Source: Lactobacillus sp. LL6
GTDB lineage: Bacteria; Bacillota; Bacilli; Lactobacillales; Lactobacillaceae
Length of the DNA stretch: 64,000 nucleotides
Assembly: GCF_007570935.1 (NCBI RefSeq)
Contig: NZ_VLLR01000002.1
Span: 1-64,000, forward strand
Direction: 5' to 3'
The first letter of the stretch is position 1. Each line of letters starts with the position of its first letter. Both the position numbers and the translations under genes were made by a program. Below the pieces are notes generated by a model. That model searched no databases. It saw nothing but the letters and a program-made list of their open reading frames with translations, and was not told where the DNA came from. Below, piece after piece: positions 1,895-18,929 of this stretch.

Positions 1895-2017
1895 CTGCTC
1901 TACCTTCCTGTTATGCTTTCTGAAAATGTTTTTATCTATACATATAATATCATTAACACTTAACATATTCAAAAGAATATATAAAAAAGGATATTTCTTT
2001 CGAAATATCCATCTATA

Positions 2018-2431
2018 TCACTTTTCATTAATATTGTTCTGTTTTTTCACCCCAGCCAAACCAATATTACTTAGTTTAGCAGCAGTTTCATCAATTAATT
2101 CGCTGCTAGTATCATGAGTGGACTGGGGACGCTTTTTTTGCTGATGATAACGCACACTGCCTTCTTGACTCACGCTTCCTACTACTTGTCGATGAATATC
2201 ACCGGCAAGCCCAATGTCATGTAAAGTATATTGCTTATGAACATTTAAATGACCTGGACGTTGTTCTTGAGAATTATTATGAAATTCATGATTAACATAA
2301 CTCTCTTTTGAAGAGTGAGAAGATGCCTGCTTTGACTCAGGTTCTACTTTAGGTGCGTGACCAGTAATTACAGCTAAAAATTTTTGCAAGCCTTTTTTAA
2401 TAGGGTTGCTTTTATTTTTAAATAATTTCAA
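2018..2431 (-). CDS. Hypothetical basic/hydrophilic protein
   Basis: A 137-aa protein starting at a TTG codon preceded by a weak AGGT-containing ribosome site. It has a basic N-terminus (KLFKNKSNPIKKGLQKFLAVITG) and a His-, Ser- and Gln-rich middle. Two copies of the short motif IGLAG (HDIGLAGDIH and SNIGLAGVKK) are present. There is no clear signal peptide or known domain. It belongs to the same leftward cluster of small proteins as its neighbours. Confidence 0.5.
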   Translation of the reverse strand: MKLFKNKSNPIKKGLQKFLAVITGHAPKVEPESKQASSHSSKESYVNHEFHNNSQEQRPGHLNVHKQYTLHDIGLAGDIHRQVVGSVSQEGSVRYHQQKKRPQSTHDTSSELIDETAAKLSNIGLAGVKKQNNINEK

Positions 2432-2582
2432 TCGCTTACCTACTCACTAAAATATATTATATTAGAATAGCTCCCTTATTAACTATCCCTACACATGTAT
2501 AATACCACAAAGCTTAATTAGTGATACAAACAAGCAATTAAAATATTCTAAAGATTTTATTCTAATGTTATTTATGTATTAT

Positions 2583-3194
2583 TTAGTATGGCCAATCTTT
2601 AATTCTATCTTTTTCACTGAGTTTACGAATAACCTTAGCTGGTACTCCGACTGCTAAGGAATTATCAGGAATATCATGAGTCACAACAGCACCAGCACCA
2701 ATTACACAATTATTGCCAATTGTAACTCCAGCACAAACAGTTACATTACTTGCAAGCCAGCAATTATTCCCAATTGTTATTGAAGCGCCATATTCATAAT
2801 GTCCTATCTCTCCATTTGCAAGAACTCGATCATTTCTTTGTTCAGCAAGTAAAGGATGAAGCGGAGTAGCTAGCGTAATATTAGGACCTAACATAACATT
2901 ATTTCCAATTTTCACAGGACAAGTATCAAGAATAGTTAAATTGAAGTTTGAATAAAAATTGTCTCCCACTTCAGTAAATTTTCCATAATCAATTTGAATA
3001 GGTCCTTGCAAATAAGTGTTTTTACCATGCTTTCCTAAAAGTTTATCAATAATTGTATCCCGCGCTATTTTATCAGTATCTGGAATAGCATTATATTCTT
3101 GGCACAAGCGATGAGCTTTATGAGAAATTTTACCTTGCGCTTGGCTCGGAATATACGGTTTTCCTGCTAACATATTTTCCATATTCTTATCCAT
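2583..3194 (-). CDS. maa: Maltose/galactoside O-acetyltransferase family protein
   Basis: A 203-aa acetyl-CoA-dependent acyltransferase of the LacA/Maa/NodL family. The start at 3194 (MDKNMENML) follows an AGAGAGG ribosome site. After the N-terminal maltose-transacetylase region come left-handed beta-helix hexapeptide repeats (IGNNVMLGPNITLATP, IGNNCWLASNVTVCAG, IGNNCVIGAGAVVTHD). The catalytic histidine region is LHPLL, and the family signature GVPAKVIRKL lies near the end. Cytosolic and trimeric in the family. The acceptor sugar is not predictable. Single-gene unit. Confidence 0.85.
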   Translation of the reverse strand: MDKNMENMLAGKPYIPSQAQGKISHKAHRLCQEYNAIPDTDKIARDTIIDKLLGKHGKNTYLQGPIQIDYGKFTEVGDNFYSNFNLTILDTCPVKIGNNVMLGPNITLATPLHPLLAEQRNDRVLANGEIGHYEYGASITIGNNCWLASNVTVCAGVTIGNNCVIGAGAVVTHDIPDNSLAVGVPAKVIRKLSEKDRIKDWPY

Positions 3195-3316
3195 TATTAT
3201 TCCTCTCTTTATTTTAGAAATCGCTTCCATAATTGTAACATAAATACTAAAACATTACTTATTACTTCTTAATTAGTTATAATTAAGTTGATAATATTTT
3301 TAATCGAGTTGATAAC

Positions 3317-4006
3317 ATGAAAATAGAAATACCTAGTTTTAAATTTATTAAAAACAGCTGGAACTTTAATCAGTTGCAAGATGGAATTGTTTTATATGAT
3401 GAAATTCAAGAAATTATAAAAATCTATCATGTTCAAGATTATTCAGACGCATATCGAAGACTGCGCAATGAACAAGAATCTGTTCTCAATGAACTTTATA
3501 ATGTGGAACCTTTGTTAAAAGGCTATGGTAAAAAGCCTTATATCACATGGAATGAATGGAAAAATTGGCCTTCATATAAAAAAATTGAATCATTAAGGAA
3601 AATTCATAACTTAAATTATCCAAATAAAATATTAGATTTTATGACTTATACACGTTACTGGGGTAATGATGCTACGCATGGTCATCGTTTTGAAAAATTA
3701 GCCAAAAGTAAACAAAAAGAAATGGTTTTATTAGGTCTGAATCATTTTCATGATGTTCTTACGTATTTAAGTAATATCTATGACCATCAACACAATCTGT
3801 ATACTACTGATGAAATGAGAATCATACCTCATCAAGGAAAAGATTATGAATTTCGCTCTAGTCGGAAAAAACATAGAGATCTAGATGTAAAGCCAATCCA
3901 TGAAGCAAAAAAGAGTGCGCCATCTTCTAATAAACAAAACTACATTCTTACATGCTTAATCATTATTATAATTTTACTTATTCTGATTTTTCTCTTTAAG
4001 TTATGA
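3317..4006 (+). CDS. Putative membrane-anchored protein, DUF4145-like N-terminus
   Basis: A 229-aa protein ending in a strongly hydrophobic helix (about residues 208-229), fitting a C-terminal tail anchor with the bulk of the protein in the cytosol. The soluble part contains TRYWGNDATHGHRF, reminiscent of the R-x-GN-x-x-H core of DUF4145-type proteins; this is only a resemblance. Its TGA stop lies within the ribosome site of the following glycosyltransferase, so the two genes are translationally coupled. Confidence 0.6.
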   Translation: MKIEIPSFKFIKNSWNFNQLQDGIVLYDEIQEIIKIYHVQDYSDAYRRLRNEQESVLNELYNVEPLLKGYGKKPYITWNEWKNWPSYKKIESLRKIHNLNYPNKILDFMTYTRYWGNDATHGHRFEKLAKSKQKEMVLLGLNHFHDVLTYLSNIYDHQHNLYTTDEMRIIPHQGKDYEFRSSRKKHRDLDVKPIHEAKKSAPSSNKQNYILTCLIIIIILLILIFLFKL

Positions 4007-4016
4007 GGTGATTACA

Positions 4017-5123
4017 GTGAAAATTCTAATTGTTATTGATGACTACTTCAATCAAAGCAATGGAATGTGTATCTCTACGCAACGTTTTGCTCAAGAATTC
4101 AAAAAATTAGGCCATCAAGTACGAATCATTTCTTGTGCAATTGATGGAACACCTGATTATCCGCTACCAGAGTTAATTGTTCCATTTTTTAAAAAAATAA
4201 TCGCTAAAGAAGGCTATCATTTAGCACTCCCAAAGAAAAAGATTCTTAATGAAGCAATATCATGGGCTGATATTGTAGCTATTGAAACTCCTTTTCCTGT
4301 TTCATGGAAAGCAGCAAAAATTGCAAAAGAAAGACAAAAACCAGTATATGGAACTTTCCATATTTTTCCTGGAAATATTACAGAATCTCTTCATATAAAT
4401 AATCATTTATTTAATTCATTTTTTATGCTTTTCTTTCGTAATATATCATTTAAAAATTGTGTTGCTCTACAATGTCCTACTTTAAAGGTTAAGCACCAAC
4501 TTGAAAAATATCATTTTAAACAAAAGCTATTTGTAATTTCTAATGGAATCAATGAGCAATTTATTGATAATCCTCATAAAAAAATAGTTGGTCATCCTTT
4601 TACCATTCTTTGTATTGGACGCTATTCTCGTGAAAAACATCAAGAAGTTTTATTAAAAGCTTTAAACAAACTGCCAAATTGTAAAAATATTCGTGTAATT
4701 CTGGCTGGAAAAGGTCCATTAGAAAAGATACTCCGCAAACAGGCCGCTAAATTACCTATAAAAGTTATTATGAAATTTTATACTCCAATACAATTGCGTC
4801 ACCTTATTGCTCATAGTGATCTTGTAGTTCATTGCGCAGATGTTGAAGTAGAAGGAATGGCTTGTATGGAAGCTTTTGCAGGTGGTTGTGTACCAATTAT
4901 TGCCGACAGTCCTTTATCTTCTACTGTTAGTTATGCATTATCTAAAATGAACAAATTTCCTGCGGGTAACAGCACAATTTTAGCAAAAAGAATTAATTAT
5001 TGGCTGCTCCATCCTATAGAATTAAAAGCGTGCAGAATAAAATATCGCAAGTTTGCTAAAAATTTAACTGTTAAAAAGTCCGCCCAAAAAACAATTTCTA
5101 TGATGGAAGATATATCTAAATAA
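4017..5123 (+). CDS. Glycosyltransferase family 4 (GT-B fold)
   Basis: A 368-aa GT4 glycosyltransferase starting at GTG 4017, six bases after the GAGGTG ribosome site that overlaps the previous stop. The N-terminal acceptor domain begins KILIVIDDYFNQSNGM. The C-terminal nucleotide-sugar domain has GRYSREKHQEVLLKAL, ILAGKGPLE and the acidic EVEGMACMEAFAGG segment that binds the donor. It resembles enzymes that make glucosyl-diacylglycerol or lipoteichoic-acid anchors, so a membrane lipid acceptor is plausible. The partner gene upstream encodes a membrane-anchored protein. Confidence 0.8.
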   Translation: MKILIVIDDYFNQSNGMCISTQRFAQEFKKLGHQVRIISCAIDGTPDYPLPELIVPFFKKIIAKEGYHLALPKKKILNEAISWADIVAIETPFPVSWKAAKIAKERQKPVYGTFHIFPGNITESLHINNHLFNSFFMLFFRNISFKNCVALQCPTLKVKHQLEKYHFKQKLFVISNGINEQFIDNPHKKIVGHPFTILCIGRYSREKHQEVLLKALNKLPNCKNIRVILAGKGPLEKILRKQAAKLPIKVIMKFYTPIQLRHLIAHSDLVVHCADVEVEGMACMEAFAGGCVPIIADSPLSSTVSYALSKMNKFPAGNSTILAKRINYWLLHPIELKACRIKYRKFAKNLTVKKSAQKTISMMEDISK

Positions 5124-5214
5124 CTAGATACTTCATACAAAAATTTAATAATGGTACACAGATTTTATGAATTATCTTATACTGAAAATATAAAATAAGA
5201 TAAGGAATGAAATT

Positions 5215-5712
5215 ATGACAAAGTTTTATAAATTATTGTGGTTGCCAATTTTAGCTGTTCTTTTAGTAGGATGTTCTCAGCAAAAAAATAATAAAAAAGT
5301 TTCTTCCAGTCATCATGTTTATCCAGTCAAGGTAACACAAGTTCACGGTCATCGAGGAGATATTATAATTAATGGAACTAGTACAGCTCCAAACGATTCA
5401 CAAATTGTAGTTAAACAACCCGCTGATGGTGATGGAGAATTTATGAACCATGGCTATTCTTCACACATTGGTAAAGCTAAAGCCGCAAAAGTAAAAAATA
5501 ATAAGTTTGAAGTTATAGTTCCGAGTGCTGAGCTCTCTTCAATTAGTAATGGAAATTTAAAAGCTGGTAATAATTTTTCATTAGATCTGATGGCTATTAA
5601 AGGTAAAAATAATCGTTTAGGAGTTGTAACAGATAAAAAATTACTTCAAGAAATTAAAGAAGCTAAAATTAAGCCATATAAATTTAAATTAACTCACAAA
5701 ATGGTCTTTTAA
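5215..5712 (+). CDS. Small putative lipoprotein
   Basis: A 165-aa protein with a lipoprotein signal peptide: basic MTKFYK, hydrophobic core, lipobox LVGC with the cysteine at residue 20. The mature part is Lys- and Asn-rich and predicted to be mostly beta structure. No known domain is recognised. A TAAGGA ribosome site precedes the ATG. Confidence 0.7.
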   Translation: MTKFYKLLWLPILAVLLVGCSQQKNNKKVSSSHHVYPVKVTQVHGHRGDIIINGTSTAPNDSQIVVKQPADGDGEFMNHGYSSHIGKAKAAKVKNNKFEVIVPSAELSSISNGNLKAGNNFSLDLMAIKGKNNRLGVVTDKKLLQEIKEAKIKPYKFKLTHKMVF

Positions 5713-5826
5713 ATATTAAATTTTATTTCACAATTGTTACACAAATTAAAGTTTCATTACGTCCTTTATTTTTGCATTTGTATATGCCAAAATAGTATAT
5801 AGCAAAACTTTGAAAGGACTACCGGG

Positions 5827-6237
5827 ATGCAGATAATTACTAAAATGATCAATGTAACACTCAATTCCGATTTAGTTTTTGCCGTGAAAAAGCGACTAGC
5901 AAAAATCGGTTTAAGTCAGGGAGGATTTATTAATGGCTTTATCCATTTCTTAGCAAATAATCATATTTTGCCATTTAAACGTTTAACTAAAACAGAAGAA
6001 GAAACTGCACAAAAAATTGCAACTCTTACTGCTTTAGAAAACAATGTTTGTGAATATGATAAAAAGAAGAAAATTCAAAAATCAGTAAACGATACTGCAT
6101 ATATGAAAGCGAAAGAAGTACTTTCTAGAGTAAAATTATCTATGTCACGAGCAATTAGAATGCTTTATGAAAAATTTGTTTTATCAGGTGAAATGCCATA
6201 TCAATTTATTCTAACCAGTCCAGACCCAGTATACTAA
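5827..6237 (+). CDS. RelB/DinJ-like protein with two ribbon-helix-helix segments
   Basis: A 136-aa protein with two consecutive antitoxin-like DNA-binding segments. The first is residues ~7-50 (INVTLNSDLVFAVKKRLAKIG, then a helix ending HILPF). The second is residues ~90-132 (VNDTAYMKAKEVLSRVKLSM, then a helix ending EMPYQF). Each resembles the N-terminal region of RelB/DinJ antitoxins. No toxin gene is adjacent, so it may be an orphan regulator or a fused antitoxin remnant. A possible promoter (TTGCAT, 18 bp, TATATA) lies in 5773-5802, and a terminator follows. Confidence 0.6.
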   Translation: MQIITKMINVTLNSDLVFAVKKRLAKIGLSQGGFINGFIHFLANNHILPFKRLTKTEEETAQKIATLTALENNVCEYDKKKKIQKSVNDTAYMKAKEVLSRVKLSMSRAIRMLYEKFVLSGEMPYQFILTSPDPVY

Positions 6238-6238
6238 T

Positions 6239-6270
6239 AAAGCCCTCTTGTTGTTAAGAGGGCTTTTATA
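6239..6270 (+). terminator. Rho-independent terminator
   Basis: A perfect 9-bp stem AGCCCTCTT (6241-6249) with AAGAGGGCT (6256-6264), loop of six, then a TTTATAAT tail. It ends the RHH-protein transcript and separates it from the convergent defence-like operon. Confidence 0.85.
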
Positions 6271-6322
6271 ATGCAATTTTATAAATTTAAGAAGTGAATA
6301 ATTGTGAAAAACCAAAACTATG

Positions 6323-8656
6323 TTACTGATTTTCATATTCTTCTTCTCTTAATAATTGAAGTAAGTATTTTTGAGCAATATTAATAACGGAAGTTTGAGA
6401 GAATCTTATTAATCCAGATAACAAACTTGAAAGTAATTCTTTATATCTAGTAATAATGTCAATATCCCCTTCAACTTTATAAATAGTTGGTTGGGTACCT
6501 ATATCAAGTTGAGGATTCAAAGCACCTGAACAATATAAAAGGCTTTGATTAATATAAGTATAGTTTATATCCAACAATCCTCCAAAAGTTTTAATGAATT
6601 GTCCCTCAGAATTACTTTTAGAAATAAAAAGTGGCAAATCAAATAACTCTTCTGAAATATGATTAAATGTTAGATTTAATTTAGATAACTTTTTTCCAGA
6701 TGAAGTTGAGATTATCTTACTTTTTAATTTAGTTTTTCCTTTTATAATATTTCCCAACTCAGTAATAGTTATTTCTTTATTACCAATATAAGATATTAGC
6801 TCTTGCTTAAAGGTTTCTACATTGGGAACTAGTTCCCATTGATCATAAGAATTTATCTTACTAATTAATTTCAACACATCTTCTTTATTAAATCGTTTAG
6901 AATTTAATTTAAGCTGTTTTTCAAAATAATCTTTTTCATACATTGGCTTTTCGTTAGTTTTAGTAATAAAAGCATATTTAGACACATCGTTAATATCATA
7001 AATTAACCATTGTGTATTACGATTAGTGTAATATTTTCGATATAGCTCAATAGCAAGTTGCTGTAATTGCACGTTTTTACTAAATTCTTCTTTCTTGAAT
7101 TCATGCCAAGCCATTTCATTATCAATGTATCCTCCCACAACACATGACTTATCATGTATTTCTTTTATTGTAGGATTACGTGATAATTTTGACTGTAAAC
7201 TCAAAAGAATAAATCCCCAATTTTTAAAATTATTACTTGCAAAGGCAGGTAATTCATTTTTATTTCGTAAATATTTGTACCATAATTCAATAAGGGAACT
7301 TGGCAATACATTTTTTAATTCTTCAGTTCGAAGCTTATTATTAGACTTAAAATTATAAACATGCCTATCTTTTTTAGTAGGATACAACATATTTCTTATA
7401 TCAATATGTTGTAATAAATTTGAATTTTTTAAACTCTTATCTAAATCATATGGATCGCACTGATTTTCTTCAATATCATATCGATTAGGAACAATCATTA
7501 GTGTGGGATTCTTAATTTTAGTACTATAATCACGTGTTATAAAATTAAAATTAAGATTATTCCACATTTTATTTTTTCCAAATTTTTTATCTGCCTTTTG
7601 CAATGCTTCACTAAACAACCTTTTAAATTGTTCTAGATCAAAATTCTGAGGCAAAAAGGCTTTTATTGCACCTAAATCAATATCAAAATTAAAATTAGGT
7701 AAAGTAGTTATTTCTTGCTTTACTTCAGAATATTTTGTAATATGTTTCATTTTTAATTTACTTAATTTTATAGAGCTCGATAAAAAATTAGCCAATTTAT
7801 AATTAAGTAAATTTAAAATCTTATAAATCATATTAATTCTTGTATCTGTTTCCACAGATAAAGTGGCTGCTTTAGCGAGGTTATCAGGTTTACTACCTGA
7901 AGCTTTTCCTACGGCAACAGGAGTTTGTAAATATACAATTTCATCATTATTTAGATTAGAAATATCTACAGCAGTTAAACGAGAGCTAAGAATTTGATAT
8001 GCTGTTTTTTTAGATAGTTTTTTAGATAATTTGCCTACCCTTATAGGATAAAATGCTGTCTCAGTAATTTGTATTAAAGCAGACTTGCTATCATCCCTCT
8101 CATCATTAATAAAATATACCTTATAAAAGTGATATGCTCCATTTTTATCGGTCAACGCAGAACTAGAGCTTTTTCTAGATTGAAGATTAGACCGCTGAAT
8201 ATAAAAGTTACTTCCAAATGCAGTACCATATGTCTTTAATGAGTCCATTGAAAATTCTTTTTTACGCAAATAATTTGGCATAATATTCAATAAAAAATTA
8301 TATTGATTTGCTAGAGTCATATTATCTACAATGACAAGTAATGAAATATTATCCAATTCTTCAATTTCTACTCCAGAATTAATGGTATTTTTTATCGCTA
8401 TTTCTAACTTATGTTTAGAAAGAATATTTTCTTTACCAAAAACAAATAAAGTATTTCTATTACCATCTTTATCAAAATATGTATACAAAGTTATCAAATC
8501 GCTTAATAAATCTTGATTTGACCAACTTAAATAACTAGGCAATTTTTTTGATTCATTTATTTTTACTGAAAAAATTTTAAATTCTTCCAATAACACATCT
8601 ATCAAAATGCCTTTACCGTTTACTCTATTAGTTGGAAAGCTTATTGCTTGTTCCAT
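6323..8656 (-). CDS. Large protein with Argonaute-like MID/PIWI pattern, last gene of candidate defence operon
   Basis: A 777-aa protein whose ATG directly abuts the stop of the helicase gene. I do not recognise it by whole sequence. Its second half has the layout of an Argonaute-type protein. A MID-like stretch near residues 380-410 (NPTLMIVPN, then YDLDKSLKNSNLLQHI) is followed by ILLSLQSKLSRNPT and VVGGYIDN near 500-515, where PIWI proteins have their IGxD strand. A C-terminal GTQPTIYKV segment (about 718) and a helix SVINIAQKYLLQLL match the usual GTP-x-P and PVTI-x-YA ends. A full catalytic DEDx set is not evident, so it could be an inactive or highly divergent PIWI protein, or unrelated. 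The length (777) suits long prokaryotic Argonautes. The gene is very AT-rich. Confidence 0.55.
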   Translation of the reverse strand: MEQAISFPTNRVNGKGILIDVLLEEFKIFSVKINESKKLPSYLSWSNQDLLSDLITLYTYFDKDGNRNTLFVFGKENILSKHKLEIAIKNTINSGVEIEELDNISLLVIVDNMTLANQYNFLLNIMPNYLRKKEFSMDSLKTYGTAFGSNFYIQRSNLQSRKSSSSALTDKNGAYHFYKVYFINDERDDSKSALIQITETAFYPIRVGKLSKKLSKKTAYQILSSRLTAVDISNLNNDEIVYLQTPVAVGKASGSKPDNLAKAATLSVETDTRINMIYKILNLLNYKLANFLSSSIKLSKLKMKHITKYSEVKQEITTLPNFNFDIDLGAIKAFLPQNFDLEQFKRLFSEALQKADKKFGKNKMWNNLNFNFITRDYSTKIKNPTLMIVPNRYDIEENQCDPYDLDKSLKNSNLLQHIDIRNMLYPTKKDRHVYNFKSNNKLRTEELKNVLPSSLIELWYKYLRNKNELPAFASNNFKNWGFILLSLQSKLSRNPTIKEIHDKSCVVGGYIDNEMAWHEFKKEEFSKNVQLQQLAIELYRKYYTNRNTQWLIYDINDVSKYAFITKTNEKPMYEKDYFEKQLKLNSKRFNKEDVLKLISKINSYDQWELVPNVETFKQELISYIGNKEITITELGNIIKGKTKLKSKIISTSSGKKLSKLNLTFNHISEELFDLPLFISKSNSEGQFIKTFGGLLDINYTYINQSLLYCSGALNPQLDIGTQPTIYKVEGDIDIITRYKELLSSLLSGLIRFSQTSVINIAQKYLLQLLREEEYENQ

Positions 8657-11600
8657 TTATATATTTTGTCCTTTCAAGTTATTCTCATTTAATAGATTCA
8701 TTAACTTCAAGCGTTGATATTCATATCCAGAGTTTCCTAAGAAAGTGTTATTCCCTAAATCATACAAAAATGGTATTTCATAAAAAGTAACATTAGGTAA
8801 GTCTGAAACAGTATATGGAAGTGGGATTTTAGGTTGTATATCAGCACTACGTAAAACATTCATAAATATGTAATTAACATGTTCTACACCGTCAATGGAT
8901 GCTATTTTTGCTATTTTCTTTTTTCTTCCTTTGTTAAGATATAGTTTTCTAGTTTCAAACGCATATTTCCAGGTTTTTATATCAACAAGAGTGATATTAC
9001 TTGTAGTAGAATTAGAAGTTGCAAAATCTGCTACTTCTGGAAACTCTTTCAGTATTCCATCTAAAAAAATGTCATCAGTATAATTTATAAGCTGAAGATT
9101 GTATCCTTTACCACTAAGCTTTTTAATATTTTCATTAATATATACTGCTGCTTGCTCTCCAAGAAATCCCTGTAAATCTAAATAATAAGCATGTGTAGGT
9201 AAATAGGATTGAGAAGATACGTAATTATCCCAATTTATTTTTTTATTTAAAATCGGAATCAAAAAGCTTTTACGAGTATCTTGAATTATCTTTAGTTTGT
9301 TTTGTGGGATGTTTTCAATATCTGCTCTACCCTGAATTAAAGTATTAATCTCATCTCTTGAAAGCAAACTTTTTATAGTAGGTCGATTTATATTTAGCCA
9401 GTTTAAAAAGCCGGGTATTTTTAGTAAGCTTGCTATCATACCATTATTCGTTAAATTGACATGCAGTAATTGTTTATTATTAGAATATTGGTCCTTAGTA
9501 AATGGCTCACCAAATGTAAGATCTGTTATAAGATTATCTACTTTATTTTTCAAAATCCAATATTGATTATTTTCATGAACTGTATTATTATTGTTCCCTA
9601 CTTTCAAATATGCATGTTTCAGATAATCTGCGATTAAAATATCCACACCTCTATTATTTGTTAGGCTTGAATTACTCATCATACTCATAAAGTTTTGGTA
9701 TTTCAAAAATTCATTTTTTGAAAGCATCGGATTAGCTAATATAAAAGCACGCTTAAAAGAGTTTGCAACCCATTTTTCTTTTACTAGATAGTCATAATCT
9801 TCATTTTGAATTAAGCGTTTAACTTCATCACTAGTACGCTCAGCAGCATTTAGTCTTTGAATTTTATCGTAATCTACATCCTTTTTATATAAATTAGAAA
9901 TATCCTGATTAAAATCATTTTCTGTCATTGTTTCTTTAAAAATTGCATCTTCTAAAGTAGTTAAAAAGGGTAAAGCGCGTCGAAAATCTTTGAATGAATT
10001 GAATTGTAACAGATTTATATCATTAGTCCCAACTTTTTTAGAACATAACTCTTGATCTAGAAAAACTATTTGATTTAATCTATTCTTTGTCCTATTTAGT
10101 CGTCCTAGAGCTTGAGCTACAATCGTTGTCAAAACTAATTGGATAGCTTGTCTATTATACTGCTGAAACTGTACATCTTGTTTTAACAAGCTGTTTATTA
10201 AAATTTTATTGATTTCTTTATACGTAATTCCACCAACATCATGTAAACTTTTTAAGTCTAAAAGCAATAAAAATAAACTTTTTGGTTCTTTAGGATTATA
10301 AGTATTTATTATACTTGTGGGTTGTTCTAAATAGACCATATCCCAATCCTTAGTTGTATCTTTTTCCTTATCAACAGCTAATGAAACTAATTTTTGTTCT
10401 ATAGTAGAATCGTTTGGAATATGATAGTTTACATTTTGGCCTTTTGCCATTGTTGCATAAGTGGTAAAAATTATTTTGTTTTTTCCTTGTGATAACTCGT
10501 TATTTAATACTTTTTGATAGTGAGGAATGTTATCAGAACTTAAGAGTTCAAAAGATTGCAGTTTAAAATCCTTTGCAGTCCATGATTCAATCCACTCATT
10601 TAAAAACTCATAATTATTTATTTCACTATAGATACTTGCAATAGTTTTTATAGATTGAATTTGTACTTCGGTCAATGAATTATTAATAAAGAAAATTGCA
10701 GACCGATATTCTGGATGCTGGGCCATTTGATCTAAACATCTTAAAAGTACATTTATTCTCTTAATCCACCTCAATTCTTCAAACTCACCATTCTTATTTA
10801 AATCAAAATCAATATTTATTAGCTTTTCAGTAAAAATATTGACGGTCTCTTTCCCATAAAATAACTGTGCTAGCGCCATTAATAACTTAGTCCGCTTATT
10901 TTCATTAATTTTTGAAAGTGAATTTATAAAGTTTTCTTTTTCATTCAACATAAAAACTTTATTCATAGTTTCTAACATGGTAGGCATTATAGGATTGTTT
11001 TTAATAACTTTAGGAGATAAAAGAGATTTTTCATAATTCATTTTAGCTTTAATAGCTTTATAAAGTTCTTTACTTTTCGCTATTTTAAAATGATTAAACA
11101 AGTTTGTATTTAAATACTCCATTGAAAAATTTTTAGGATTATCTCTTAAATCTCCTAATGCATCAATACTAAATACTTTATATTTACTTGTAATATCAAG
11201 CCATAAACGTTCAGCACTATTTGGAATATAACCCCATTGAATTGAAATAGCTTGCGTGGTGTATACATAAAGAGAAAATACTGAAAAGCCCTGATTATCT
11301 AAAGACTTACTTGTCGTTCTATATGCATAATTTTTATTCAAATTACTATTAGCAGTATTAGCATAAAAATTATAAATATTATCATTTAAATTTAAATCAA
11401 TTAAAAGTTTAAATAATTCTAAATTATCATCATACTGTAAATTTGGAGGCAATATCTTCTCTAATTTACGGAACTTCGATCCAAAGGCTGCTTGAGATAA
11501 TTTAATAATAGTACTTCGAGTAGCCTTATTAAGCTCCCATACCATTTGGTCAAAAGGATAAATAGAATAATTACCTTTTTTATAAATTCTATTTAATTGC

Positions 11601-13081
11601 TCAGCTTGTTTAAATATTTCTTTATCAGATTGCTTATTATCTACTAAATTATTAGTTTTGAAATTGTAATAACAAATATCACGTAAAATAAGTCTATGCT
11701 TATTTTTAGAATCTCTTGTATCAATCCAAAATCGTGAAACATACCTTTTTTTGCCATTAATTTCTATTTTTATTTTATTAGTAGATAATGGTATATTGTA
11801 TCCTGTTGTTATAAACATCGTCTGTTTTCTTTTGGCTCCTACCAACATACTTGGACCAGCAAAGATTTTATTTATTAATTTATAGTTTTTAAATACTTCT
11901 TGTAGCCTTTTGGTAGCCTTTTTAACTACTGCTTTAGTTTCGCTTTCGTCTTCTCCTATGACCCCATCTGCAATATTATTAAAAGATAGATTAGCTAAAG
12001 GTGCAGAAGCATTTATTAAATCAATAGTTGCTGTTCCTTGTTCAGCCAAAATTTCATTTAAAGTTTCTTTAGTTTCTGTAAACTCATCTATAATAATTAC
12101 TGGATCAGCTTCAGTTTCTATAGCTTCATATAAAGAAGATTTTGTTTGTAAAATTAAATTTGATGGTAAAAATAATTTTTGGGTTGTCAAAATACTAATT
12201 GGACTAAAATTAATGGCAATTTGACTATACAGATCTCGAATAACTTGAAAATTATTATAAATAAATTTATATGCTTTAGTTAAATTCAGCTTACTCCGCA
12301 GATATATAAGTTTACTACCATTCAGTCCCAGCTTAATATGCGCATAACTTATATTAGCTAAATATTTTTTACTTATTTTAAAATAGATATGTTCAGGATT
12401 CTTTTTTTGCTCATATATTAATATTTTATACATAAGATCACGTAGAATATGAGTTAATTTTTTGTATTTTTTATCAAATTGTTCTTTAGTATAGTTTTTT
12501 AATTCTTTACTATATTGTCCTATTTCAAAATGCTTACGAAATATTGCAAAGTCAAATTCAGATAATATATCCTCAAATTTCTGATATGTAGCTTGATTTT
12601 TTAAATTTAAATTTTCTAAATTATTAGATATGGGTTTATCTCTGTCATTTTCATTACCAAAATCCACATATTGCTCAAAATCTTTTAAATAATAAGTGAG
12701 ATTTGGATTATCATATTTACCACTTGATAATACTGAATGGGTATTTTTTATAAAATTAATGCTGGCATCATCTTTGCTTTTTATTTCTGTAACATATTTT
12801 TGTATTTCTGGAGTAAAATCAGTTTTTTTAACTAAATTATTTTTCTTTTTAGATACATAAATTACTTGTGGTACCGAGATACCTTGAGAAAGTGCTTTTT
12901 TCACTTTTTCTTCTCCAAAGCTTATTGCAGAATAACTTTTCCCAATTCCTGTTGGAGCAGCAAAACATATTTGTCCATAATGTCTTCCCAAACTATTTGT
13001 ATTAAGAGAATTTAAATATCCTTCCTCTTTGTTATATAACTTAAGCATCTCATTACTAGTTTCTTTTTGACTAAATAGCAT
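8657..13081 (-). CDS. Giant SF2-type helicase with C-terminal PD-(D/E)xK-like nuclease
   Basis: A 1474-aa ATPase with a strong ribosome site (AAAGGAG). Helicase motifs visible: Walker A APTGIGKS (K48), motif Ia-like PQVIYVSKKKNN, Walker B VIIIDEFTE (D332/E333), a motif V-like FTTYATMAKGQNV, and motif VI QALGRLNR (about 990-997). The C-terminal part has a nuclease-like set: GFLGE (E1309), VADF (D1352) and VDIKTW (D1367/K1369), the E...D...D-x-K order of restriction-endonuclease folds. No HD domain is present, so it is not Cas3. It is the middle gene of the operon, 15 bases after the DUF3800 gene and zero bases before the 777-aa gene. The role proposed (unwinding and cutting invader nucleic acid) is inference. 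Confidence 0.7.
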   Translation of the reverse strand: MLFSQKETSNEMLKLYNKEEGYLNSLNTNSLGRHYGQICFAAPTGIGKSYSAISFGEEKVKKALSQGISVPQVIYVSKKKNNLVKKTDFTPEIQKYVTEIKSKDDASINFIKNTHSVLSSGKYDNPNLTYYLKDFEQYVDFGNENDRDKPISNNLENLNLKNQATYQKFEDILSEFDFAIFRKHFEIGQYSKELKNYTKEQFDKKYKKLTHILRDLMYKILIYEQKKNPEHIYFKISKKYLANISYAHIKLGLNGSKLIYLRSKLNLTKAYKFIYNNFQVIRDLYSQIAINFSPISILTTQKLFLPSNLILQTKSSLYEAIETEADPVIIIDEFTETKETLNEILAEQGTATIDLINASAPLANLSFNNIADGVIGEDESETKAVVKKATKRLQEVFKNYKLINKIFAGPSMLVGAKRKQTMFITTGYNIPLSTNKIKIEINGKKRYVSRFWIDTRDSKNKHRLILRDICYYNFKTNNLVDNKQSDKEIFKQAEQLNRIYKKGNYSIYPFDQMVWELNKATRSTIIKLSQAAFGSKFRKLEKILPPNLQYDDNLELFKLLIDLNLNDNIYNFYANTANSNLNKNYAYRTTSKSLDNQGFSVFSLYVYTTQAISIQWGYIPNSAERLWLDITSKYKVFSIDALGDLRDNPKNFSMEYLNTNLFNHFKIAKSKELYKAIKAKMNYEKSLLSPKVIKNNPIMPTMLETMNKVFMLNEKENFINSLSKINENKRTKLLMALAQLFYGKETVNIFTEKLINIDFDLNKNGEFEELRWIKRINVLLRCLDQMAQHPEYRSAIFFINNSLTEVQIQSIKTIASIYSEINNYEFLNEWIESWTAKDFKLQSFELLSSDNIPHYQKVLNNELSQGKNKIIFTTYATMAKGQNVNYHIPNDSTIEQKLVSLAVDKEKDTTKDWDMVYLEQPTSIINTYNPKEPKSLFLLLLDLKSLHDVGGITYKEINKILINSLLKQDVQFQQYNRQAIQLVLTTIVAQALGRLNRTKNRLNQIVFLDQELCSKKVGTNDINLLQFNSFKDFRRALPFLTTLEDAIFKETMTENDFNQDISNLYKKDVDYDKIQRLNAAERTSDEVKRLIQNEDYDYLVKEKWVANSFKRAFILANPMLSKNEFLKYQNFMSMMSNSSLTNNRGVDILIADYLKHAYLKVGNNNNTVHENNQYWILKNKVDNLITDLTFGEPFTKDQYSNNKQLLHVNLTNNGMIASLLKIPGFLNWLNINRPTIKSLLSRDEINTLIQGRADIENIPQNKLKIIQDTRKSFLIPILNKKINWDNYVSSQSYLPTHAYYLDLQGFLGEQAAVYINENIKKLSGKGYNLQLINYTDDIFLDGILKEFPEVADFATSNSTTSNITLVDIKTWKYAFETRKLYLNKGRKKKIAKIASIDGVEHVNYIFMNVLRSADIQPKIPLPYTVSDLPNVTFYEIPFLYDLGNNTFLGNSGYEYQRLKLMNLLNENNLKGQNI

Positions 13082-13096
13082 TTTTGCCTTTCTCCT

Positions 13097-14326
13097 TTAC
13101 TTATTTAATATTTGTAAAATATTTCTATTAAAATACTTCAATCCACGATTAAAAGTGTCATACTCTTCTTTTTTTACGACCTTTTGAACACTCTCAATAT
13201 TTGTGGTGATCTGAATAATTGTTTTGTGATAGTTTTTATCTTTGACTTTATTACTAAATTGCAAAATAAACTCATTAGCGTTCAACCCATTAATTAACGC
13301 AAGCGGCTTTAAAGTTTTATTTAGCATATTAATTTCTTCTAAAATCCGCTTTCTTTTCGAACTAAGAGTTACATTATTACAATCTGTTAAGATTCTATAT
13401 GCTAAAGAAATCGTCGACGATAAATTATGATTAATTATTATTCTTTTATAGAATCTATTTATTTTTATTCTTAAACTTTTAATATTGTAATACCATTTTT
13501 GAGAATATTGGAGATTTGGGAGTTCTTCTGCGTCAGGTCCTAATAACAATCTCGTGTAAGCCACGTATCCAAATAGTTTTAAAAATATTTGATCTTGTTT
13601 TAACTTTTCTGGACCTTTTTCTAGTAAATAGGCAAAAGGAATAATCTTTACTTTTTCATTAGTTTTAATATAGCTGCACTCTTTCCTGTATGCTCCAGCT
13701 AACATATCTGCAAGTTGGATTCCATAAGATTGCTTGCTGTCAAGCACATGATAAGTAAAAATATATTTTAAATTTTGTGTCGAAATTTCATTTGCCATTT
13801 TTCCAAGCAACTCCTGACTATAACTTACATACGGATTAATTCCATTCCGGCTCGTCTGATCTATCAAAATATTAAATTTCACATAATGTGTAGTTGCATC
13901 AACTTTTATCGCTTTAACTAACCTTTTTACAGGTGCAATATATGATCTTAGATCCAACGCTAAAGATAAAGCTTGCTTATTATGTTCAAAAGAATCTAAC
14001 ATATATGCCGGGCGTGAAAAGATCAAACTTTTAGTCAAATATTTTTTACTGTTTTTTAAAATATTTCGATTTTCTTTATCAGATACATTAGTACTTTTTA
14101 TCTCTGCACCTTTTCTCGATTTATACACATATTGAAAATAATATTTATTAAATTTTTTTATATTACAAACAGGAATTACACAAAAAGCCGTAATAAATTG
14201 TTCTGGAAAAGCATGTTCGTCTATATGACGATAGGTAATACTTTCATCGATATAAATGTTATATTCTTCAGAACGCATTAATAGTAGGGGCTGTTTCAAT
14301 GTGGTAGTTAATAATTTTATTGCCAT
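13097..14326 (-). CDS. DUF3800 family protein, first gene of candidate defence operon
   Basis: A 409-aa protein with DUF3800 hallmarks: YNIYIDES (D27-E28-S29), a middle strand FNILIDQTS, and QLADMLAGAYRKE near residue 215. In this family these acidic residues form a putative RNase H-like metal site. About 190 C-terminal residues beyond the domain are helical and unrecognised. The start at 14326 is preceded by a GAGG ribosome site; the internal MRSEEY start has none. An extended -10-like TGTGATAAT lies about 50 bases upstream. DUF3800 genes often accompany mobile or defence loci. Confidence 0.75.
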   Translation of the reverse strand: MAIKLLTTTLKQPLLLMRSEEYNIYIDESITYRHIDEHAFPEQFITAFCVIPVCNIKKFNKYYFQYVYKSRKGAEIKSTNVSDKENRNILKNSKKYLTKSLIFSRPAYMLDSFEHNKQALSLALDLRSYIAPVKRLVKAIKVDATTHYVKFNILIDQTSRNGINPYVSYSQELLGKMANEISTQNLKYIFTYHVLDSKQSYGIQLADMLAGAYRKECSYIKTNEKVKIIPFAYLLEKGPEKLKQDQIFLKLFGYVAYTRLLLGPDAEELPNLQYSQKWYYNIKSLRIKINRFYKRIIINHNLSSTISLAYRILTDCNNVTLSSKRKRILEEINMLNKTLKPLALINGLNANEFILQFSNKVKDKNYHKTIIQITTNIESVQKVVKKEEYDTFNRGLKYFNRNILQILNK

Positions 14327-14680
14327 GATTATAACCTCAAATGTATGTTTGCTTTATCGCGTTCTTAAATTATCACAAATAAGTTTTTGTTTTACTAGAC
14401 TAGACATTCAATATTGTTTCTGATATATAGAACAAGTTTTCAGGAGTCATATATATTTGCTAATTTGCTATAAAATACTAAATATAGACAATTTAAAAAT
14501 ATAGTATTTAAATCCTTCTTTTTATAAAAAAATAACCCAATCACTCAAAATAGTTGTAAATAAATATCTTGAGTCATTGGATTTTTTACATAGAAAATAA
14601 ATAATTAAATCATTTTATCAAAAACAATTTATAATATTTTTCGTAATTACAATTAGCAATAAATAAAAAGGAGTAATTAT
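14327..14680. promoter_or_regulatory. Divergent intergenic region with insulating hairpin
   Basis: This 354-bp gap separates the leftward three-gene operon from the rightward 451-aa gene and must hold both promoters. It is extremely AT-rich. A 12-bp inverted repeat with one mismatch (14537-14548 with 14569-14580, 20-base loop) is flanked by T-runs on both strands. It could insulate the two units or shape a short RNA. No gene is seen. Confidence 0.45.
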
Positions 14681-16036
14681 ATGGAATCTTCAAAATATTG
14701 GTATGGAACGGTTTATTCTAAACATTTATATTCAAAAGATTTAATTAACTTTCCACAATTAGATTATGCTTTTATTGGACCAAAACATACTAATTGTAGT
14801 ACTAAGCCTTCAATAAAGTTTCCGCAAGGCAATAAAAAGGATCCACATTTTATTATCTATTTAAAGCTTAAAAATAAGCTTACTAAGCAAAAAATTATTG
14901 ATTGGTTTGAAGAAAGGAACATAATTATTAAATACTTACATAATTCCTTTGAAAATTTAGAAGCCAATAATATTATTAGATTAACTAAAGGTATTAAGCA
15001 AGGGCATCTTGAGTATTATGATTTTAGCAAAATACGTATAGTTAATAAAAGTAATGTTTTATTTGACTATCGTGAATTTTTTCCTCATCAAACTTTCACT
15101 AAAACAGCTTTAAAACGTGAACGTGATTGGACTGACAAATGTTTAACCTATTTACCAGCTTCTCATGAACGTAAAGAATTTAACTTTCAATATGGATCTG
15201 TAATGTCTGATGTATGGTCGATATATATTATTAAAAAATTAGAAGCTCAAGAGCCAATTAAATCTATTTTAGCCAAAAAACGAAGTCCTGAAGCTAAATT
15301 AAAACGAAAAAAATCGGCTAAAAAGCGTCAACAAACTATCCTTAATAAAGAAAAGCACCTGGCTGAACAATATAACGAAAAAATGATAGCTACTTATAAT
15401 TTTCTTCCTGACTTTGAACGGGAGCTCGCTCTTATTCTGGCAAAATTACAAGTTTTAAATCATTTAGCAAAATCTCTTCAAAACTGGAAAATTATTGAAA
15501 AAAGTCATCAAAAAAGTGCTAGTAAAATGATTAAAATATTAACTGAAAAATACAATTCTTCTGAAATTTATGAATTAAAAAATCAAGTTTTAAATAAAAT
15601 TTTCAATAATTATTCTCATTATCTAAAACTATGTGCATATCGTCCTGAAAAAGCTAATAAATACTTTGTACACTATTGTGATATACATAATTCTGACCGA
15701 CATTTAAGTAAAACTTCTTTATTAGACTATCTATTTGCCAATTATCAAGAAATTGATCATTGTCACAACTGTCATGTTGAAATAATTAAAGATTATTATG
15801 CTTGCTATAATTTTGAAGTTTCATTAAATCCAAACATATATTTTAATTTTCACATTCCTTATCCAGTAGGAAAAGATAACTATCCTAATCTTCACAAGCT
15901 GCCTAAAATTCGCCAAATTCCAAATGAAAACGGTCCGTATTTTTTTGGTCGAGAATCAAATAATTATGAAAATAATTATGCTGTTCATTATAATCTTTTG
16001 ACCGACATTAAAAATTGGCTCAAAAAAGCAAACTAA
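14681..16036 (+). CDS. Unknown 451-aa protein divergent from the candidate defence operon
   Basis: Start supported by an AAAGGAG ribosome site. It contains a Lys-rich predicted coiled coil near residues 190-240 (KRSPEAKLKRKKSAKKRQQ) and a Cys/His cluster near 365 (HCHNCHVEIIKDYYAC), which could bind a metal. No known domain is recognised. It is as AT-rich as the operon opposite and may belong to the same island as a regulator or accessory gene, which is inference from position only. A hairpin terminator at 16061-16092 follows. Confidence 0.6.
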   Translation: MESSKYWYGTVYSKHLYSKDLINFPQLDYAFIGPKHTNCSTKPSIKFPQGNKKDPHFIIYLKLKNKLTKQKIIDWFEERNIIIKYLHNSFENLEANNIIRLTKGIKQGHLEYYDFSKIRIVNKSNVLFDYREFFPHQTFTKTALKRERDWTDKCLTYLPASHERKEFNFQYGSVMSDVWSIYIIKKLEAQEPIKSILAKKRSPEAKLKRKKSAKKRQQTILNKEKHLAEQYNEKMIATYNFLPDFERELALILAKLQVLNHLAKSLQNWKIIEKSHQKSASKMIKILTEKYNSSEIYELKNQVLNKIFNNYSHYLKLCAYRPEKANKYFVHYCDIHNSDRHLSKTSLLDYLFANYQEIDHCHNCHVEIIKDYYACYNFEVSLNPNIYFNFHIPYPVGKDNYPNLHKLPKIRQIPNENGPYFFGRESNNYENNYAVHYNLLTDIKNWLKKAN

Positions 16037-16054
16037 AATCATTTTTACTGAAAA

Positions 16055-16105
16055 ATAAATATGAACCTTGAGTTTTCAACCTCAAAGTTCATATATATTT
16101 TTGTT
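16055..16105. terminator. Bidirectional hairpin terminator
   Basis: Stem ATGAACCTTGAG (16061-16072) with CTCAAAGTTCAT (16081-16092). The single mismatch on the plus strand becomes a G-U pair on the minus strand. T-rich tails flank both sides. It lies between the convergent unknown gene and NADH oxidase gene. Confidence 0.65.
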
Positions 16106-16116
16106 CAGAGCATTAA

Positions 16117-17484
16117 TTAAACTATTTGATTATAATTTAATGCTTTTTGAGCAGCTAAATTAATTATATTCCATTGTTTATCAAAACTTGGTGAGAAGAA
16201 GAAATCGGCTTCAGCTAAATCTTCCAAGGTCAGTTTTTCTCTAATTGCTAAGCTGAGTACATTAGCTTGTGCAGTAATATCATAGCTGGATAAAGTTGAT
16301 CCACCAAGAACTTGGTGACTTTCAGCATTATATACAATTGAAAGATATGCTTCTGGATTATCTTTTTCAGGAATATAGGCTGGTCTGAGGTGGTCTTTAA
16401 AGACTACTTCACATGCATTAATACCAGCACGTTCTGCCATTTTTTCACTTAAGCCAGTTGTAACCGCATGCATATCAAAAGCTTCTAATACTTGCGCACC
16501 AACAATTCCTGCAAAAGGACGAGACGGAGTCGTTTCAAATAAATGTTCTACAACATATTGAGCTTCATGGCGAGCTGCAATTGCTGAAGGAATTGGAACA
16601 CGACGGTTAGCAGGAATACTAAATGGAAAGACAGCGTCCCCAATTGCATAAATATCAGGAGCACTTGTTCTAAAGTATTCGTCGGTTTTAATATATCCAT
16701 TATCATATAATTCAACTGTGCCATCTAACCACTGAGTATTAGGACTAACACCAACAGCAATAATTACTAAGTCAGTCTTAATATCACCATTATTAGTCTT
16801 CACTGTATCTACTTTTTTATCACCGCCAAAACCAACAACCTTAGTTTCCATGGCTAAGTTAACACCATTTTTAGTTAAAACTTTTTCGAATACATCTGTA
16901 TATGTATTATTTAAATAATTCTCAAGTGGCTTCTTACCTGAATCAATCAAGGTTACATTTTTACCGGCTTTAGCCATTACTTCCGCAGCAGCAATACCAT
17001 TACCTGCACCAATAATTGCTACATTATGAATTGAGTCATCTTTTTGAGCAGCATCTATTTTTTTAACCCAGTCATATCCACGCATTAAGTAAATATTTTC
17101 CAAATCTGCCCCTGGTAAGGATAGTTTGGCAGGATTTACACCGGATGAAATAATTAGCTTATCATATGGAAATTTAGCTTCTTCACCAGTTTTAACATTT
17201 TTAGCAGTGACCGTATTCTCAAAGGTATTAATACTTACTGCTTTAGTATTGTTATAGAGGTGTCCATTTTTATTTTGTAATTGATTTGATCTAAAATTCC
17301 GTACATCATTAATGCCAGTAGTTTTTCCTTCTAAATAGAGCTTCATTCCACAAGACATAAATGAGACATAATCCGATTGCTCTAATAATGTAACATCTAC
17401 ATTTTGATAATGATTTAAAATTTCAAATGCGGCTTCATGACCACCATGTGAAGCACCAACAATAACTACTTTACGCTTTTCCAT
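16117..17484 (-). CDS. nox: FAD-dependent NADH oxidase / CoA-disulfide-reductase family
   Basis: A 455-aa pyridine nucleotide-disulfide oxidoreductase. The FAD-binding GASHGGHEAA lies at the N-terminus, the redox-active cysteine is C45 in SFMSCGMKLYLEG, the NADH-binding GAGNGIAAAEV is in the middle, the FAD motif YAIGDAVF is near residue 285, and a C-terminal dimerisation domain ends the protein. This is the single-cysteine class that includes water-forming NADH oxidases, which regenerate NAD+ with oxygen in lactobacilli. Start follows an AAGGGG ribosome site, 18 bases after the Rossmann-fold gene, so the two form an operon. Confidence 0.85.
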   Translation of the reverse strand: MEKRKVVIVGASHGGHEAAFEILNHYQNVDVTLLEQSDYVSFMSCGMKLYLEGKTTGINDVRNFRSNQLQNKNGHLYNNTKAVSINTFENTVTAKNVKTGEEAKFPYDKLIISSGVNPAKLSLPGADLENIYLMRGYDWVKKIDAAQKDDSIHNVAIIGAGNGIAAAEVMAKAGKNVTLIDSGKKPLENYLNNTYTDVFEKVLTKNGVNLAMETKVVGFGGDKKVDTVKTNNGDIKTDLVIIAVGVSPNTQWLDGTVELYDNGYIKTDEYFRTSAPDIYAIGDAVFPFSIPANRRVPIPSAIAARHEAQYVVEHLFETTPSRPFAGIVGAQVLEAFDMHAVTTGLSEKMAERAGINACEVVFKDHLRPAYIPEKDNPEAYLSIVYNAESHQVLGGSTLSSYDITAQANVLSLAIREKLTLEDLAEADFFFSPSFDKQWNIINLAAQKALNYNQIV

Positions 17485-17502
17485 AAAAGTTACCCCTTCT
17501 AT

Positions 17503-18150
17503 CTACTTGTTAGCTACAGTAATTCTTTCTCTTGAATGTTGTGGATCAACTATTTCTTTAATTACAACTTCAGCCATAGTTCCAGATGTTAACTTAGAAT
17601 CACCTGAGTTATTATAAAGTAATTCATCTTTACCTATAATGTAGTCAGTTGCTGGACCAGCTTCAAATTGCATTGCTGGAGAAATTCCTAACCAATCAAC
17701 ATCATTAATCCCTTCAAGATATTCAAGCTCTTTTAATTGTTGAACCGGAGTATTAATCCAAGCATCTGATCCAGGAAGAGACTTAATATCTTCAACTACT
17801 CTATGATGATCTTCACCAGTGTGAAGACTACCTGCGCCTAAAATGAAAATTACTCTAATATTGTTTCTTCTAGCAATACTAATCAATTTTTCAGCTAAAC
17901 GAAGATGCGCTGCTGCATTATCTGGAGTAGTTCCAAAAGCATCAACAATTACATCGAATTGGTTAAGCATACTTTCTGGCATATCAAGAATATCACCAGC
18001 AATTAAGTCAACATCATCACCCAATATTTCATGAGCTTTCTTTTCATTTCTAATAATTCCAACCGGAGTTAAATCTGAATTTTCTTGAGCAGCCTTGAAG
18101 ATTGCGCTGCCTGCCATGCCTGAGGCACCAATAATACCTATTCTTTTCAT
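17503..18150 (-). CDS. NAD(P)-binding Rossmann-fold protein (NmrA/atypical SDR)
   Basis: A 215-aa protein with the nucleotide-binding start RIGIIGASGMAGSAI and DVDLIAGDILD, typical of atypical short-chain dehydrogenases that act as NAD(P)H-flavin or quinone reductases or redox sensors. An AAGGAG ribosome site precedes the ATG. It is first in a two-gene unit with the NADH-oxidase-like gene, which suggests a joint role in redox balance or oxygen response (inference). Confidence 0.8.
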   Translation of the reverse strand: MKRIGIIGASGMAGSAIFKAAQENSDLTPVGIIRNEKKAHEILGDDVDLIAGDILDMPESMLNQFDVIVDAFGTTPDNAAAHLRLAEKLISIARRNNIRVIFILGAGSLHTGEDHHRVVEDIKSLPGSDAWINTPVQQLKELEYLEGINDVDWLGISPAMQFEAGPATDYIIGKDELLYNNSGDSKLTSGTMAEVVIKEIVDPQHSRERITVANK

Positions 18151-18317
18151 AATAATCTCCTTTTGTTAACGTCTTGAATACACTTTCAGCATAACACTAA
18201 TTTATCAATTTTTTTAATAATAAGCCTTAAAAGCGTTACCATTTATTAAAAAAGGTGTTAAAATAATAACTGGAGCTACTAATATAGTAACTCCTCAATT
18301 CCCATATCTTTTCAGAT

Positions 18318-18440
18318 ATATTCCATATTTTTATTTAATTCATATTTATTTTAGCAAGATTCACCTCTAAATATTGCTAAAAGTTATATCACTCATATTC
18401 ATATAAATAAAAGGAAGGCCTATGTGACCTTCCTTTTATT
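18318..18440. repeat. attL: left copy of the 123-bp attachment repeat
   Basis: Matches 61993-62115 at 122 of 123 positions (G18418 versus A62093). It contains a perfect 9-bp inverted pair TTTTAGCAA/TTGCTAAAA (18349-18357 and 18374-18382), a likely core-type binding site for the integrase. It also holds a complete terminator hairpin AAAAGGAAGG...CCTTCCTTTT near its right end. The exact crossover point within the repeat cannot be seen. Confidence 0.9.
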
Positions 18441-18575
18441 ACTCCTGCAAGGGTTTAAAGAGATTTTTAATTTTATTTTAGAAAATTATGCGAAGCCGTA
18501 ATAACTTATTTCTTAAAAATTTAAAAAATCAAAAAATTACTTTTATTCCCTCTCATTCTCCCATTTTCTATGAGC

Positions 18576-18596
18576 TTTACGGATTTTTTACGGATT
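18576..18596 (+). repeat. Integrase arm-type sites, left arm
   Basis: Two direct copies of TTTACGGATT at 18576-18585 and 18587-18596, spaced 11 bp. The same pair, with the same 11-bp step and orientation, occurs at 61890-61910 on the other prophage end. After excision both pairs flank the attP core, as expected for arm-type sites of a tyrosine integrase. Confidence 0.7.
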
Positions 18597-18667
18597 TTTA
18601 TAAACTAAAGTCAAAAATGTTCTGAAAACTTATAATTTACTAATAGTTTTAGTTTTTAATTTTTTCA

Positions 18668-18815: not shown

Positions 18816-18845
18816 ATTTGAATTTTCTATAGATAGTAAAAACAC

Positions 18846-18900
18846 AAAAAAGACCACTCCAGGGCTAGCATTGATATGAACCCCTAGAGTGGTCTTTTAT
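18846..18900 (-). terminator. Terminator of the prophage late operon
   Basis: A long stem built on AGACCACTC (18851-18859) with GAGTGGTCT (18887-18895), followed on the minus strand by a T6 run. It lies 30 bases after the endolysin stop and would end late transcription. The stem is near-symmetric, so it may also stop transcripts from the left-end sRNA. Confidence 0.8.
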
Positions 18901-18929
18901 AATATTACGGAAAATTTTAAATAACTTAC

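Follow-up and report, generated by a model that had tools for sequence, protein, structure and literature searches.

The question raised by this locus is whether three tightly packed genes on a Lactobacillus contig encode a new kind of defence system or a divergent member of a known one. The genes lie in the first 64,000 bases (the window, meaning the whole stretch analysed here) of a 315,680-bp contig of Lactobacillus sp. LL6. An earlier reading made without database searches, called here the sequence-only reading, had proposed a new defence system matching no known operon, and composed of a DUF3800 protein, a superfamily 2 (SF2) ATPase with a PD-(D/E)xK-like nuclease end and an Argonaute-patterned partner. 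We confirmed all three closely spaced, AT-rich genes as real, but by homology they are not a new kind of system, as the helicase and its partner form a divergent DdmDE pair. This pair matches a known anti-plasmid defence operon, an outcome that the proposal itself had counted against its novelty. The operon is likely a divergent DdmDE-type anti-plasmid system carried on a circular Lactobacillus megaplasmid, with the DUF3800 gene as a probably optional neighbour.

Operon layout and base composition

The three open reading frames (ORFs) lie on the minus strand and follow one another, in the direction of transcription, as a 409-amino-acid (aa) DUF3800 protein (13097..14326), a 1474-aa helicase-nuclease (8657..13081) and a 777-aa protein (6323..8656). 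Their coordinates confirm the tight packing noted before, with gaps of 15 bases (1474/409 aa) and 0 bases (777/1474 aa), and the DUF3800 and DdmDE genes are probably co-transcribed. We regard all three ORFs as real genes because homologues exist for each. The claim of a higher AT content also held: the GC content of the 777-, 1474- and 409-aa genes was 26.1%, 26.9% and 28.0%, respectively (26-28% versus 31-34% in the flanks). The left flank (1-6237) has 31.2% GC, the right flank (16117-24000) 33.8% and the remaining contig 32.8%. The low-GC block spans approximately 6 to 16 kb, as a divergent 451-aa neighbour is equally AT-rich (26.8%).

Identification of the 1474-aa protein as DdmD

Searched against the PDB (phmmer, E < 0.01), the 1474-aa protein matched five near-identical chains at E 4e-7 over residues 827-1011. 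These chains are titled only Helicase/UvrB, with three of the five deposited in entries that also hold chains named DdmE (8u3k, 9bgk, 9ezy), and we take all five to be DdmD. A same-phylum relative (E 7e-6) was identified as DdmD by PADLOC (4e-40) and is followed by a DdmE-like gene, and the PADLOC DdmD model reached the 1474-aa gene itself at E 5.5e-9 in a genome search. Pfam gave only a sub-threshold match to Helicase_C_2 and one chance-level match. A 14-row DdmD profile from which the protein was excluded covered its residues 33-1132 and its nuclease end (1361-1441); among 246 ORFs this profile recovered the 1474-aa gene at 3.4e-42, and only DdmD genes and pieces passed 1e-3. The profile-profile comparison called for by the sequence-only reading, run with hhalign, matched the protein to DdmD at 99.7% over residues 593-1446.

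The motifs of the protein include APTGIGKS (42-49), DEF (332-334), QALGRLNR (990-997), E1309, D1352 and D1367-I-K1369. In a 16-row DdmD alignment the invariant residues included G881, N883, Q990, G993, R994, R997 and E1309, while D332, E333, D1352, D1367 and K1369 were near-invariant; we take these conserved residues to represent the DExx box, motif VI and the PD-(D/E)xK site. The SF2-type ATPase with a PD-(D/E)xK-like end, as previously described, is therefore borne out by DdmD homology and conserved motifs. The nearest relative was found in another Lactobacillus genome (G1122), near full length in two frames with 27% and 33% identity, and G1122 carries the same divergent DdmD/DdmE pair. The two DdmD sequences formed a clade with support of 100/100 on a long stem, the place of which among the other groups was weakly supported (56/39) and carries a long-branch warning. 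Among 397 family genomes searched at E 1e-10, only its own contained the protein, and neither a related-locus search in genomes and viral contigs nor tblastn in plasmids and phages provided a lead. By homology, the 1474-aa protein is a divergent DdmD.

Profile-level assignment of the 777-aa protein to DdmE

Single-sequence searches with the 777-aa protein gave no meaningful match, and Pfam returned no family at E up to 5. At E 1e-4 it was observed only in its own genome among 395 genomes of the order, and no lead came from a related-locus search in genomes, from tblastn in plasmids, from a search of viral contigs with the DdmE of a relative, or from a PDB search with the DdmE pair. Its gene lies directly downstream of DdmD, as in other DdmDE loci, and in a two-protein search the protein matched the first part of the gene that follows in G1122 (E 2.3e-9). 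When compared by hhalign to a 19-row DdmE profile built without it, the protein matched at 91.3% locally (558-774) and 97.5% globally (1-777), with all controls at or below 0.6%. The controls were the reversed sequence, five shuffles and 11 non-DdmE proteins of 691-918 aa (eight unrelated, three DdmD or DdmD pieces); the remaining 14 of the 25 proteins in this run were the query and 13 DdmE rows from the profile itself. Seventeen DdmE rows led to the solved DdmE chains 9iw3 (1e-197) and 8u0j (3e-25). At the profile level the 777-aa protein is a divergent DdmE, and the Argonaute-patterned partner seen previously stands as a family assignment, by which the catalytically inactive long-Argonaute fold of DdmE would be expected.

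A related possibility is that the operon is of the ApsAB type, with a helicase-nuclease of the same superfamily and an ApsB-like partner bearing a guide-binding MID motif. ApsA and DdmD are described as one continuum (PMC11096173). The residue numbering of ApsA reaches at least 1444 and that of ApsB at least 743, so that both are similar in length to the 1474- and 777-aa proteins. The latter also contains Y462-x3-K466, Q488 and K541, in an LYRKYY context, resembling the MID motif. However, this motif reads QS where ApsB has QG and its spacings differ, and loose Y-x3-K..Q..K combinations are frequent by chance, with 18 in the 777-aa protein and 1-33 in 14 other full-length rows. The Walker A motif at residues 42-49 agrees with most DdmD rows (near 218 in the Cetobacterium DdmD described below) rather than with ApsA, where it lies at 218. 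The partner matches the DdmE profile, whereas ApsB is described as lacking sequence similarity to DdmE (PMC11096173). An ApsAB-type system is thus unlikely, and we retain the DdmDE assignment.

Distribution of DdmDE in the family and genus

At E 0.001, 13 of 301 family genomes, including that of the window, had a match to the PADLOC DdmD model. A whole DdmE ORF adjoined DdmD in nine of the 12 other loci; of the remaining three, L039 has DdmE in two frames, L035 is truncated by the end of its contig and L042 lacks both genes. The match behind L042 (genome G219, E 8.4e-5, a 167-aa frame) was rejected, as the ORFs of this locus match neither the DdmD nor the DdmE profile. A DdmD profile (A1) matched 11 of 75 Lactobacillus genomes, nine of which were kept after dropping two: G1118, in which a Cas3-like gene is followed by Cas-type genes (as read from sequence) and no ORF matches the DdmD profile at 1e-3, and G1155, in which no locus ORF matches it at 1e-3. 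Four of the nine were in the profile by construction (the window, G1122, G210 and the Lactobacillus intestinalis plasmid row, equal to G1125), and the other five were found independently of it, one of these by PADLOC as well. Within the same 75 genomes the PADLOC model gave only three with DdmD, compared with nine by profile A1, and DdmDE therefore reaches beyond what this model detects.

Copies broken by stops or frame changes were observed in five of the nine Lactobacillus genomes (G210, G311, G376, G392, G1122), with DdmE split between two frames in G210 and G392 and DdmD over more than one in G311, G376, G392 and G1122. This suggests either frequent loss or assembly errors. The helicase/Argonaute pair recurs across genomes, and a DUF3800 gene directly adjoining it was seen only in the window; the combination of all three genes, whose co-occurrence the sequence-only reading had proposed to check, is not conserved.

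Two further observations were made on related loci. On plasmid p6 of Cetobacterium somerae (L007, 6997-13647) the DdmD of a DdmDE-like pair is long (1377-aa ORF), and the pair is directly followed by a 235-aa ORF without a Pfam match that is a possible third component. The DdmD of the L. intestinalis plasmid (L005 8728-12141; NZ_CP072985 121908-125321) may have been annotated with too short a start, since the tblastn match to it begins at 121617, 291 bases upstream.

The DUF3800 gene

The 409-aa protein matched the Pfam family PF12686 at E 2.5e-7 and 31.9 bits, above the gathering cut-off of 21, in agreement with its first assignment to DUF3800. It is 30-36% identical to five DUF3800 proteins from other Lactobacillus genomes, and residues D27, E28, D83, D156, D196 and D207 are invariant in the resulting six-row alignment. 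DUF3800 is described as having an RNase H nuclease fold and as accompanying Cas12a2 (V-A2) and VI-F loci, where its suggested part is in interference or in CRISPR RNA (crRNA) biogenesis or degradation (PMC10910872, PMC12669027). With the fold taken from this literature, the 409-aa protein is a probable RNase H-fold nuclease. No sequence relative was found in the PDB, where all matches were at chance level (E 0.07 or worse), and neither the protein and its alignment searched against viral contigs nor tblastn in phages gave a lead. More distant relatives (27-32% identity over about half the length) are encoded by 10 plasmids, 200-214 kb in size, from Ligilactobacillus and Lactobacillus. A search of six DUF3800 loci with Rfam returned only FMN riboswitches and a piece of a group II intron.

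We considered whether the operon might be a genuine three-component system requiring DUF3800, for example to make or trim guides for the DdmE-like protein. The DUF3800 and DdmD genes share a strand and are 15 bases apart, and DUF3800 proteins have been described as accessories in other systems guided by nucleic acids (PMC10910872, PMC12669027). At E 1e-5, 12 of the 75 Lactobacillus genomes contained DUF3800 relatives and nine contained DdmD, with four in common (one-sided Fisher p 0.03), but the p-value rose to 0.09 once two near-identical loci were merged. In only one of the nine DdmD genomes, that of the window, was DUF3800 adjacent; two (G210, G1153) had it on the opposite strand at a distance of about 2 kb and one (G376) had it on another contig, and no relative at E 1e-5 was found in the other five, including G1122 with the nearest DdmDE. 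Conversely, eight of the 12 DUF3800 genomes lacked DdmD (with the Cas3-like match of G1118 dropped), and at E 0.1 the ORFs of 18 further loci included no DUF3800 relative. Among nine DUF3800 loci examined, DdmDE genes were found only in those of G210 and G1153, and the remainder adjoin housekeeping genes or defence-looking ORFs, e.g. type I methylase-like and SIR2-like (as read from sequence). Searches of an open-licence literature library found no paper containing both DUF3800 and DdmD.

This patchy adjacency makes an obligate three-component system quite unlikely. DUF3800 is probably an optional neighbour nuclease and not a core component of DdmDE. An equally doubtful form of the three-part idea is a DdmDE variant in which the RNase H-fold nuclease would supply or trim guides for the DdmE-like protein and the megaplasmid would exclude its rivals; if true, this would parallel the position of DUF3800 beside Cas12a2. 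The guides of this family have been called uncharacterised in their nature (PMC11096173), and the locus offers a setting in which to ask if an Argonaute-type system is aided by a DUF3800 nuclease.

The megaplasmid

The contig encodes Rep and ParA proteins 85% and 92% identical to those of plasmid unnamed2 (319,380 bp) of L. intestinalis DSM 6629. A tRNA scan of all 14 stretches of the contig found none, and a 407-aa open frame runs across its joined ends. Because of these features (Rep and ParA, the lack of tRNAs and the frame across the ends) the contig is, as judged from its sequence, a circular megaplasmid of about 316 kb and a sibling of the 319-kb L. intestinalis plasmid. The latter carries a different DdmDE, adjoining rep and near parA. 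A flavin adenine dinucleotide (FAD) oxidoreductase gene in the window (16117-17484) has its counterpart about 6 kb beyond DdmE in that plasmid, with 77% DNA identity. Proteins related at 80% to the L. intestinalis Rep were also found on L. amylolyticus plasmids of 200 and 214 kb. Since a plasmid collection was searched, these finds carry no claim of enrichment on plasmids.

Proposed function

The conserved motor and nuclease residues of the 1474-aa protein are compatible with the known mechanism of DdmDE, in which DdmE binds single-stranded DNA guides and recruits a dimeric, autoinhibited DdmD that moves on the non-target strand and cuts (PMC12409362). By analogy, the 777-aa DdmE-like protein would load short nucleic-acid guides, find complementary plasmid DNA and recruit the 1474-aa DdmD-like protein onto the displaced strand. 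The latter would translocate by its SF2 motor, and its C-terminal nuclease would cut or nick the plasmid. Borne on a megaplasmid, such a system may clear smaller plasmids that compete with its carrier and make the carrier itself more stable. As two sibling megaplasmids carry two DdmDE lineages, we infer plasmid-against-plasmid competition as the natural reading, and with this pair both plasmid-against-plasmid defence and the self-sparing of the carrier become directly testable.

A DdmDE-like pair acting mainly on phages, and not on plasmids, was also weighed. A prophage lies close by on the megaplasmid, and other Argonaute systems act on phages. The described DdmDE and ApsAB systems, however, act on plasmids (PMC12409362, PMC11096173) and ApsAB was inactive against eight phages (PMC11096173), which makes a mainly anti-phage role very unlikely. 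The pPIWI-RE-like island suggested by the sequence-only reading, with its resemblance in a PIWI-type partner, a helicase and a nuclease, is scarcely credible given that the 777-aa protein has no Pfam match, helicase and nuclease form one protein, and the 1474- and 777-aa proteins show homology to DdmD and DdmE, respectively. A conjugation or competence operon was rejected, as none of the three proteins matched such a family.

Several observations weigh against the DdmDE reading, which we nevertheless consider likely. A hmmscan of the operon proteins against PADLOC gave no match, the 1474-aa protein is only 15-19% identical to DdmD rows outside its own clade, and the SAT motif of most DdmD rows is DAL in this protein and DAT in its nearest relative. 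The DdmE identity rests on the profile-profile comparison; hmmsearch with the same 19-row profile found the 777-aa protein (4.3e-9) only when two proteins were searched and all filters were switched off, and with default filters it was absent at 1e-3 among the 246 ORFs. Of the checks suggested previously, the structure predictions were uninformative: single-sequence AlphaFold2 models of the 777-aa protein and of residues 16-255 of the 409-aa protein had predicted local distance difference test (pLDDT) values of 32 and 35, respectively. The Y462/K466/Q488/K541 pattern gives an ApsAB or intermediate form a small probability, ApsAB having been weighed by its published description only. Finally, activity cannot be assumed because five of the nine genus relatives are broken.

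Neighbouring features

The 354-bp gap that separates the DUF3800 gene from the divergent 451-aa gene contains a strong hairpin (14522..14591) in which both strands have T-runs; the RNA fold of 14500-14610 (minus strand) gave -25.9 kcal/mol (z -5.1). Rfam searches of 1-20000 and 12900-14800 assigned no family to the hairpin at gathering score (Rfam families DUF3800-I and DUF3800-IX exist), and no second copy was found in the DNA examined. The 451-aa AT-rich ORF itself (14681-16036), divergent from the operon, was not convincingly matched by any family of Pfam, NCBIfam, PADLOC or PHROGs, nor by tblastn in plasmids. On the other side of the operon, a 136-aa ORF (5827-6237) contains two RelB/DinJ-like stretches and resembles a tandem antitoxin. 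The prophage is of the tailed-phage type and extends from 18930 to about 55000 (limits guessed from ORF layout), with a large terminase (43873-45783), a portal (42541-43701) and an HNH/homing-type endonuclease (35003-36211).

Comparison with known systems

A separate nuclease gene is expected in pPIWI-RE islands. The locus shares with them the idea of a PIWI-type protein combined with a helicase and a nuclease, but no Pfam family was matched by the 777-aa protein, and here a single protein combines helicase and nuclease. Like Cas12a2 (V-A2) and VI-F CRISPR loci, it places a DUF3800 nuclease beside a nucleic-acid-guided effector; those of the Cas12a2 loci, however, are TPR-DUF3800 proteins of CRISPR systems (PMC10910872, PMC12669027), whereas the guided module of the window is DdmDE, with CRISPR arrays looked for only by a repeat scan of 14300-14700. 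Pfam gave no TPR match here. With ApsAB of Escherichia coli ST38 it has in common a helicase-nuclease of similar length, in a family continuous with DdmD, and an Argonaute-like partner, but 217 aa precede the GFGKS motif of ApsA and only 41 aa precede APTGIGKS in the window protein (PMC11096173).

The closest likeness is to DdmDE (PDB 9ix4/9iw3; Vibrio cholerae 9ezy, 8u0u, 8u3k, 8u0j), with which the locus shares the gene pair and its order, an SF2 helicase fused to a PD-(D/E)xK nuclease, and a partner that is DdmE-type by profile. Entries 9ix4/9iw3 are presumably of L. casei origin. Compared with these systems, the 1474-aa DdmD is about 280 aa longer than solved DdmD (1190-1195 aa), most of the inserted sequence lying ahead of the nuclease and between motifs I and II. 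Solved DdmE chains have 677-715 aa, and the 777-aa DdmE exceeds them by 62-100 aa. The window locus further differs in having a DUF3800 gene upstream and in its location on a megaplasmid.

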